Of a DNA stretch of 64,000 bases, positions 30,938-35,829 are shown piece by piece (positions within the stretch are counted from its first letter, which is position 1; the number at the start of each line of letters is the position of its first letter). The stretch covers positions 62,001 to 126,000 of the forward strand of contig NZ_JAENWM010000001.1 in NCBI RefSeq assembly GCF_016650035.1, in the 5' to 3' direction. The translations under genes were made by a program, and so were the position numbers. Below the pieces are notes generated by a model. It was not told where the DNA came from. It saw only the letters and a list, made by a program, of their open reading frames with translations, and did not search any database. This DNA comes from Clostridium sp. (GTDB taxonomy: Bacteria; Bacillota; Clostridia; Clostridiales; Clostridiaceae).

Positions 30938-31130
30938 AGGGTAGAGGTGCTGTATCTAAGAGTACTTATTTGGAGCTGACAGGCTAAGATGAATAAGAAA
31001 AGGAGATTCGGCCGAAGAAAATATATGTAAAGATATTTTCTGGGTATGCATATAATATGTGTATACTTGTCACTGATTTTTAGTGGAGAGCTACAAGGTA
31101 CACGAAGTTTGTATAAAAACATGTATTTTT
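30938..31130 (+). ncRNA. lysine riboswitch (L box) upstream of lysC-lysA
   Basis: GTAGAGGTGC..., GGAGATTCGGCCGAAG, TCTGGGTATGC, CTTGTCACTG...AGTGGAGAGCTACAAGG; lysine biosynthesis genes downstream. Confidence 0.92.
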
Positions 31131-33804: not shown

Positions 33805-33904
33805 ATAATATCGTATGAAATTTTTCCTGCGTGCCTTGCAAACGAGCTTAAAACAGGAAATTACATTAAGAAATTCTAACCTTTTGCAAATATAAAATTC
33901 TCTG

Positions 33905-33996
33905 ACGCTAACATTCGGCTTCCTGCCTCAGGTTAGCTAGACTGCCGTCCTGGCAGTCTTCTTATGCCAAAACGAACGGGAGTTTTTTGTTAGTTG
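33905..33996 (-). repeat. attC-like / foldback repeat A
   Basis: ends CGCTAAC / GTTAGTTG; shares 24 identical nt AAAACGAACGGGAGTTTTTTGTTA with repeat B; inner GACTGCC-GTCCT-GGCAGTC hairpin. Confidence 0.6.
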
Positions 33997-34121
33997 AAGT
34001 CAATTCATGATATTGATGAATGCTATTGGAATATATTACCTATAATGATATTATAAAACACTTTAAATTTTAATCAAATTCATATATAATTATCATATAA
34101 ACTATAAGAGGGTGAAATACT

Positions 34122-34406
34122 TTGGACAAAGAATTAATAAAATCATTAAGCGATTTATTAGATGAAAAATTGACTCCAATAAAAAACGATTTAAAAAGCA
34201 TAAAATCTCAACAAGAGGAAAGTATCTCAATTCTAAGAGCATTAGAACATAAAGCGGATATTAATAAAGCTGAGCATGATAAATTATTTAATGATATTGC
34301 TAACCTTTCTGGTAGTGTAGAGAATATGAGAAAAGATCTTTCTGCTGTAGAAGTTGTTACTGCTAGAAATATGGAAAATATAGCTCAACTAAAACTTGTA
34401 AAATAG
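34122..34406 (+). CDS. small coiled-coil-like protein of unknown function
   Basis: 94 aa, TTG start preceded by GAGGGTG; heptad-like charged helix. Confidence 0.6.
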   Translation: MDKELIKSLSDLLDEKLTPIKNDLKSIKSQQEESISILRALEHKADINKAEHDKLFNDIANLSGSVENMRKDLSAVEVVTARNMENIAQLKLVK

Positions 34407-34497
34407 AAAAATTTTTAGCCTGTTAACTTTTTTATAAAGGTTGCAGGTCTTTTTTTTGATAAAAAATCTTTTCCTATTTTTTCAATTGTGTATAACC

Positions 34498-34815
34498 CTA
34501 ATAAGATTTCAAGTATTCATAGAATTTATGATATCCATTATCGAGTGTATCACAATGTATAAATTGCATATTTAAATTAATAGTTTCTTCTGGAAACCCA
34601 AAATTATCATCCATAAAAATAACTTCATCAGTTTCAACTGAAAGTTTTTCACATGAATTAACTAGGTGAATTATTTCACTTTCTGTAGCACTATTGCTTA
34701 TTACCTTTTCATAAATTTGATTTGTAATAGATTCCATCCATCTTTTGTTGAATACTAAAACACCATGCCAATCAAATAGAATTGCCGTTAGCGCTCGAAT
34801 ACCCCTTCCCCACAA
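34498..34815 (-). pseudogene. HAD-like hydrolase, probably internally deleted
   Basis: AILFDWHGVLV (motif I-like) and VIFMDDNFGFPEE (motif IV-like) only about 50 aa apart. Confidence 0.55.
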
Positions 34816-34852
34816 AAAAATTATAATAACAACTTAAGCCTAGATAGGATTT

Positions 34853-34967
34853 CATCTAACGTTTCGTATCCAAGACGTTCCTGAACCTTAGCCAGACCTG
34901 GCTTGGTGAAGGAATGTGTTTTAGCCATCTTCTCAGGCTAAAACGAACGGGAGTTTTTTGTTATGTG
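34853..34967 (-). repeat. attC-like repeat B
   Basis: termini CATCTAAC / GTTATGTG (6/8 complementary); inner hairpins AGCCAG-AC-CTGGCT and TTTTAGCC-ATCTTCTCA-GGCTAAAA. Confidence 0.65.
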
Positions 34968-35052
34968 AAGTTCTCTTCCCAGTAAAACATGACTAGCATG
35001 GATAGTGAAGTATGGAAGTCTACCCCGATAATTCACTATTTCAATCTTAGTT

Positions 35053-35559
35053 CTAACGTTTATTCAATATATTTAAAAAGTTTTCCTTCTCATCAATACT
35101 GCGGAAGATTCTTATTGGAATAATATAAGCCATTATAGCACTAACGTATATAAATATATGTGCTTCAGATTCAACGACCTTTTCAATTAAATTATAGCTT
35201 GTTTCACTGAATTCAGTTTTATCAACGACACCTTCTTCTGTATATGAAAAGATGTGATTCCCAAGAATACCAGTAGTTTTACCTTCCTCAAGCATCTTTG
35301 AAATGTTTCTTTCTACAGATTTTTTAAAAAATTTAGGATAATAAATAATCCATAATACAGATGAGATTATAAAAACTCCAAACCAATACCATAAAGATAT
35401 GTCGGTAATTTTTACTAGAAATATAGGCAAAATTAAAAATATAATTGGGATGAAAAATCTTTGAATAAATAAGGAACGTTTCATTGTTATTGAATGATTC
35501 ATATGGTAAATATTAAAATCGATGTAGTCTTGCTTAGTTATTTCATATTCTAATTTCAT
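35053..35559 (-). CDS. YcxB-like membrane protein
   Basis: two TM helices followed by SYTEEGVVDKTEFSETSYNLIEKVVESEAHIFIYVS...IPIRIF. Confidence 0.7.
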   Translation of the reverse strand: MKLEYEITKQDYIDFNIYHMNHSITMKRSLFIQRFFIPIIFLILPIFLVKITDISLWYWFGVFIISSVLWIIYYPKFFKKSVERNISKMLEEGKTTGILGNHIFSYTEEGVVDKTEFSETSYNLIEKVVESEAHIFIYVSAIMAYIIPIRIFRSIDEKENFLNILNKR

Positions 35560-35669
35560 AAAATCCCCCTATAATTGAAAATATATTATTGTAAAACATT
35601 TTTTGTAAATAAAAACCGTAACCTAGGCTTTTCAAGCGCAATATCGACAATGTAGTCTTTGCAAACAAT

Positions 35670-35745
35670 TTCACATAACGTTAGTACCCCCGACGTTGGT
35701 GTCGTGTATTATAACTGTGGTTGGGGACCATAACCTCCCTAGTGA
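35670..35745 (-). repeat. weak attC-like repeat C
   Basis: TTCACATAACG (complement CGTTATGTGAA matches the corresponding end of repeat B) followed by palindromic GACGTT.../GGTTGGGGACCATAACC. Confidence 0.35.
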
Positions 35746-35829
35746 ATAAAAAAATATAAGTATATTATACCATTACTTTGATTTAGTGTAAATTTAATAG
35801 CAACTCTTTAATCTGTCGTTATATAGAAA

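Follow-up and report, generated by a model that had tools for sequence, protein, structure and literature searches.

A stretch of 64,000 nt of Clostridium sp. DNA (the window) carries, between lysA and the gene for a CDF transporter, what is very probably the decayed remnant of an integron: an attI, two cassettes, and one whole and one half attC, with the integrase gone. The same high confidence extends to its class, integrons of Bacillota and Bacteroidota in which the tyrosine recombinase lacks the IntI patch and has a HARP-like N-terminal domain. The integrase, being patch-less, falls outside IntI as defined, but by anatomy and inferred mechanism the system is judged, from its sequences, to be a new sort of integron. 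This type is apparently undescribed, and appears to be widespread in Gram-positive bacteria and Bacteroidota.

The array between lysA and the CDF transporter gene

Read on the minus strand, the array consists of a promoter-like site, a shortened attI (site C), a cassette with a YcxB-like gene, a whole attC (B), a cassette with a HAD-like ORF and a half attC (A); the window thus holds one complete and one truncated cassette (Table 1). The first-pass annotation had proposed an integrase-less cassette array read in this direction, with A, B and a weak C as attC-like repeats. Arrays in relatives uphold the direction, as 111 genes between their sites follow the minus-strand reading and 15 are opposite. 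The plus-strand orientation of the sites is rejected by gene direction and by the cassette breakpoints described below.

Table 1. Features of the lysA-CDF interval (positions in the window)
Feature	Position	Strand	Description
Promoter-like site, possible Pc	35792-35764	-	TTTACA-17 nt-TATAAT, TG before second hexamer; reads into attI and cassettes
attI remnant (C)	35676..35745	-	One CGACACCAACGTCGG repeat copy and R' box AACGTTATGTGAAATT
Cassette 1	34857..35678	-	TTATGTGAAA..., YcxB-like gene, attC B
YcxB-like protein, 168 aa	35053..35559	-	PF14317, E=7.5e-8, above gathering cut-off
attC B	34857..34963	-	R'' CACATAAC, L'' ACTCCCG, two hairpins, L' CTTGGATAC, R' CGTTAGATG; 103.9 bits
Cassette 2 body	33990..34859	-	HAD-like ORF and antisense ORF; ends at half attC A
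HAD-like ORF, 105 aa, possibly a fragment	34498..34815	-	ORF call; no Pfam family at cut-off
Coiled-coil-like ORF, 94 aa	34122..34406	+	Opposite to cassette direction; no Pfam family at cut-off
Half attC A	33957..33992	-	R'' CAACTAAC, L'' ACTCCCGTTCG, start of first hairpin; L' and R' lost; 41.6 bits
Unrelated palindromic repeat, 3' of lysA	33868..33960		Outside integron; fused to half attC at GGCAGTCTT

Repeats A and B are real and lie where they had been placed. A 24-nt block is common to them, and over a 44-nt stretch their identity is 89%. The 22-nt core AACGAACGGGAGTTTTTTGTTA occurs at these two places only in the source genome (3.97 Mb in 167 contigs), even allowing three mismatches. A covariance model, R1, was built from sites of relatives, with the window sites, B included, left out. 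Searched over the whole genome, it finds B with E=3.4e-15, and the attC layout that had been read on the minus strand of B is upheld, with its fold, by this independent model. A is found with E=9e-4, its right side unaligned. As nothing else in the genome rises above noise, the repeats are not scattered genome-wide. Does B still function? Its L'' and L' boxes come from two different site types and are unpaired, which gives a chimeric L stem (mispairs are marked in the model alignment); with this stem broken, B may no longer work.

Repeat A stood in part. Only its attC half is related to B, and the remainder belongs to the palindromic repeat 3' of lysA, copies of which are found elsewhere in the source genome at 82-86% and which is kept at the same place in congeners. 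The letters at the fusion point are common to both parts, and this suggests that the half attC was joined to the lysA repeat by short homology. The lysA repeat is a member of this second palindromic family, about 90 nt long (AAAATTCTC...GAGAATTTT with CCTGCCGTCCTGGCAGG inside), which was observed also at loci L012-L015 and L017.

Site C had been taken for a third, weak attC, which is not borne out: the attC model misses it and it aligns to attI, so that the attC assignment is rejected. The nearest array-bearing relatives of the source genome are Clostridium sp. CS001 and CF012. C aligns at 25/27 positions to the attI-like region adjoining the CS001 integrase (score 44 vs a best of 26 among 300 shuffles) and gives score-41 matches to the attI of CF012 and of a further relative, G006. 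Its 24-nt motif has zero chance matches in shuffled windows. The CF012 attI has two CGACA...TGTCGGG repeats 43 nt apart and C has one, and C therefore looks shortened between the copies. The repeat in C is followed by CGTTATGTGAAATT, which matches an arm of attC B. The promoter-like site agrees with 11/12 consensus positions and is the best in the region, a consensus match of a kind no more numerous here than in shuffles; the CS001 attI has no convincing promoter match.

The arms of cassette 1 (GTTATGTGAAATT / GTTATGTGAAGTT) match at 9/10 variable positions and those of cassette 2 (GTTAGATGAAATC / GTTAGTTGAAGTC) at 7/10, and both pairs have an A/G difference at position 11. All three ORFs that had been noted between the repeats are present. 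The YcxB assignment holds; the HAD-like ORF is there, possibly as a fragment, and its HAD assignment is without Pfam support.

Where did the cassettes come from? In a DNA similarity search against all collected loci they matched nothing over 130 nt, and their tblastx matches, among those listed, fall on sites. The lysA-CDF interval of congeners is rejected as a source, with sites in 0/14. A comparison of this interval across strains had been suggested, and it is not invariant: its length varies among congeners from about 0.2 to 2 kb. Because the interval is variable and free of sites in the 14 congeners, the array appears peculiar to the source lineage. As the first-pass annotation had stated, the window has no integrase, and the profile of the arrays' recombinase family finds none of that family anywhere in the source genome, its matches being distant recombinases and IS91-linked fragments. 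The window array would now be stranded, unless an integrase works in trans. The IS91-type recombinase genes of the source genome are present only as fragments, at the ends of contigs C30 and C81. A lysine riboswitch (RF00168, 52.6 bits, window 31000-31101) lies upstream of the aspartokinase-lysA genes, the match being cut by the edge of the searched stretch.

The recombinase and its arrays

In three relatives (G002, G012, G019) the arrays begin with a tyrosine recombinase of ~350 aa, and one array in G006 begins with a broken copy of it. Among sampled Clostridia genomes, 12/291 encode the recombinase at full length (436-520 bits), and the sites co-occur with it (p=2e-4 over 290 genomes). A scan of named genomes found relatives of the recombinase in Clostridium, Halonatronum, Orenia, Lutispora, Halanaerobium, Alkaliphilus, Fusibacter, Paenibacillus, Cohnella, Flavobacterium and others. 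Recombinase and arrays occur together in Halanaerobium, Lutispora, Alkaliphilus, Fusibacter, Paenibacillus, Cohnella and Flavobacterium, as well as in Clostridium.

In contigs that bear an integrase, R1 matches are downstream and on the recombinase strand without exception (59/59). A generic hairpin scan was too noisy for counting arrays, and complementarity of cassette arms was used instead. This independent test gave 78 cassettes downstream and 0 in shuffles; its minus-strand calls are in Clostridium-type loci, where AACGTT is palindromic, apart from one Lutispora call. At a stricter threshold, cassettes are found downstream in 20/46 loci vs 1/154 upstream control stretches (p=6e-14). The other 26 of the 46 integrase loci with at least 1.2 kb downstream gave no array at the strict threshold, and fewer were arrayless under looser tests. 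The best of these arrays are those of Cohnella lupini (13 cassettes) and Flavobacterium noncentrifugens (11). In 12 loci a GTT lies 79-157 nt past the recombinase stop, with arms that match the first attC, and this is taken as attI.

The solved structure nearest to the Clostridium recombinase is VchIntIA (2a3v), both by sequence (4e-38) and by fold (3e-17). The sequence match is split: residues up to 181 and from 239 align, and between them there are 15 residues here, ~42 fewer. The IntI patch is thus absent from the family, the region of VchIntIA 182-238 being about 42 aa shorter, and H-x-L-R-H follows K-G-x-K-D-R at a spacing of no more than 69 in 49/49 measured members. VchIntIA reads the extrahelical bases of its sites with residues that include K209, Y210, W219, P232, H240 and H241 (PMC3053210), of which K209, Y210, W219 and P232 fall in the stretch without counterpart. 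The catalytic R, K, H, R and H are invariant among 51 sequences and the Y is nearly so. The family protein P0001 scores 216 bits vs the TIGR02249 cut-off of 265; this is close to the cut-off of 220 for NF040815, a model named site-specific tyrosine recombinase/integron integrase.

The first ~70 residues of the recombinase are outside the IntI and Xer matches. Pfam HARP (PF07443) matches 16/51 members, with a best value of 5e-6. Modelled separately, the N-terminal 67 residues give a pLDDT of 88. Foldseek matches of this model are weak: E is about 0.05-0.5 over the damage-recognition domain of XPB, the HARP domain of SMARCAL1 and domain I of MutS, and about 0.05-0.1 for the folds relevant to the HARP likeness. 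These three folds recognise distorted DNA. The likeness to the SMARCAL1 and XPB domains is weak in sequence and in fold, and unlike them the domain here is fused to a tyrosine recombinase. We infer that it reads the folded attC.

Could the arrays be mobilised instead by IS91-linked recombinases, with the 350-aa recombinase a passenger? The IS91-type proteins are closely related, patch-less and present inside some arrays, and the source genome contains no other such genes, only their fragments. They adjoin IS91 transposases, however, and lie at varied places in the arrays, whereas the 350-aa gene is at the array head, by attI, in Clostridium, Paenibacillus, Cohnella, Halanaerobium and Flavobacterium; mobilisation by IS91-linked enzymes is therefore very unlikely. 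Together with XerA/XerC/XerD-like enzymes, IS91-linked tyrosine recombinases are the nearest patch-less sequence relatives (NF040815). The HARP-like domain is absent from the two IS91-type proteins examined, unlike the recombinase here. We know of no IS91-linked or XerA/XerC/XerD-like recombinase with attI and attC arrays. Elements of the IS91 type that carry a patch-less recombinase of their own (C-terminus SPLD) are inserted in arrays, e.g. at L048 5393-7430.

Sites, cassette ends and strand asymmetry

The core pattern matches 9/60 relatives, with 12 same-strand copies in G006. R1 finds 132 sites in 30 loci; counted by genome, there are 71 sites in G006 and 15-26 in six others. The sites are 35-172 nt long, about 1 kb apart, and form long one-direction arrays. 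In a 39-site alignment the L''/L' stem consists of 8 pairs, continuous and without a bulge in the consensus, that are 94.6% paired and show two-sided changes in 8/8 pairs. Its covariation is 0.657; shuffles give 0.212, and sliding by 1-3 columns leaves no more than 0.156. Rfam has no family that covers the attC-like sites, group II introns being its sole matches in the arrays.

Where a cassette is common to different array contexts, the break falls exactly at CGTTA, the R' box. Thus, identity between two contigs of G002 (L054/L055) stops exactly after GTTA, and genomes G006 and G016 (L049/L050) have a common cassette from CGTTA onward. With breakpoints at this box, each unit is a gene followed by its attC and joined at R', like an integron cassette. 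Some common cassettes differ between their two places in the attC, which is full at one and a 35-nt mini-site at the other. Because two mini-site cassettes have a full attC in another genome, the middle of the mini attC seems to have been deleted between the L boxes. Mini sites of ~35 nt, with R''-L''-L'-R' alone, are found at L049 3043-3097, L099 639-692 and L046 546-600.

The two ends of a cassette are related to one another. Between the R' flank of a site and the R'' flank of the following one, 5.84/8 positions are complementary vs 3.59 for all pairs, and the covariation spans ~15 nt. Among 48 Clostridium cassettes, the matches at positions 5-9 and 12-16 come mostly from covariation. Position 11 differs: 48/48 have A in R' where the reverse complement of R'' has G. 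In 87 cassettes of other genera (26 contigs), which were scored without position 11, this position is A/G in 82 and identical in 1. The asymmetry gives an A.C mismatch on the top strand and a G.T pair on the bottom strand. When naked strands of the modelled circular site are folded computationally, stability favours the bottom one in 45/48 and 83/87 cassettes. It may be, as far as these sequences indicate, that the fixed A.C/G.T arm position takes the strand-choice role of the extrahelical bases.

Might the repeats nevertheless be ordinary interspersed palindromic (REP-like) repeats that flank genes by chance and have no role in recombination? A second palindromic family does exist in the source genome and overlaps A, but the attC-like sites are confined there to one locus, and in relatives the arrays lie behind a recombinase gene, run in one direction at ~1-kb intervals and consist of sites with cassette-specific complementary ends and covarying stems. 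Chance flanking is thus extremely improbable.

How would an intact integron of this class operate? In its members the tyrosine recombinase (HARP-like N-terminus, no patch) precedes attI and then cassettes of one gene plus attC, all in the same direction. A cassette would leave as a circle. The bottom strand of attC is predicted to fold, with the R''/R' and L''/L' arms paired. Strand exchange by the recombinase would take place at G^TTA of R', the partner being attI or a further attC. A more tentative proposal, held with somewhat less than even confidence, is that of a widespread, undescribed integron class in which the HARP-like N-terminal domain replaces the IntI patch in reading the folded attC, and the near-invariant A.C/G.T arm position is a strand mark in place of the extrahelical bases.

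Among 54 cassette proteins there are GNAT acetyltransferases (11), methyltransferases (7), HD-domain proteins, hydrolases and two matches to Cass2, which is an integron-associated effector-binding family. Such a mix of accessory genes is usual for integron cassettes. PADLOC gave few matches to the cassette proteins. Group II introns (RF02005) are present directly after attC R' boxes (CGTTA, then GTGCGCC) in several arrays, e.g. L046 16375-16615 and L047 9741-9981, and reverse transcriptase ORFs are found also in L048, L053 and L107. These recall the group IIC-attC introns known in classical integrons.

Relation to known integrons

The arrays resemble the sedentary chromosomal integrons of the VchIntIA/superintegron type in having a recombinase gene, an attI and one-direction cassettes, each with an attC. 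They are alike also in the R''-L''-L'-R' layout, the G^TTA junction (from sequence), a bottom strand that folds better (computed) and varied accessory genes (GNAT, methyltransferases, Cass2). There are differences, however. The recombinase here is patch-less, has the extra HARP-like N-terminal domain and points the same way as the cassettes. The R''/R' arms reach about 15 nt, with the fixed A/G position; the L stem is bulge-free in the consensus and many sites have a second hairpin. The window copy is like a CALIN, as it has cassettes and attC without an integrase, but unlike one it keeps an attI remnant and a promoter-like site, and its single whole attC and half attC fall short of the size usual for a CALIN. 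That the window holds the remnant of a canonical integron (IntI with patch) acquired from Proteobacteria would account for the overall layout, the one-direction cassettes and the two Cass2 matches, but it has hardly any likelihood, given that no recombinase exceeds the TIGR02249 cut-off in the source genome or in seven array-bearing relatives tested, and that in sequence both the sites and attI agree with the patch-less family from Clostridium relatives.

Firmicutes are listed among integron-bearing phyla in reviews (PMC8618304), but for this phylum IntegronFinder 2.0 reported a single complete integron besides a few CALINs (PMC9024848). A survey of 103 Firmicutes genomes found none, with selection for the IntI patch stated (PMC2426708). 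Searches of this kind, directed at a patch-bearing IntI, would pass over a system with a patch-less recombinase. No description of a patch-less integron class was found in the open-licence PMC papers searched. Should the recombinase prove active, folded attC sites can be read without the patch, the definition of integrons and the tools that search for them would need revision, and Gram-positive hosts would have a native tool for gene capture. The system also allows the recognition of single-stranded DNA by a recombinase to be tested cleanly.

A phage collection yielded distant recombinases only. Two contigs classed as viral carry the recombinase, one (L198, IMGVR_UViG_3300000568_000548) with several weak attC-model matches downstream and the other (L278) with a single attC-like pattern. 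On plasmids, the recombinase with a few cassette-like units downstream is present in Chryseobacterium (L311 8971-14769) and Rufibacter (L313 8626-15415); plasmid-borne copies would make the system mobile.
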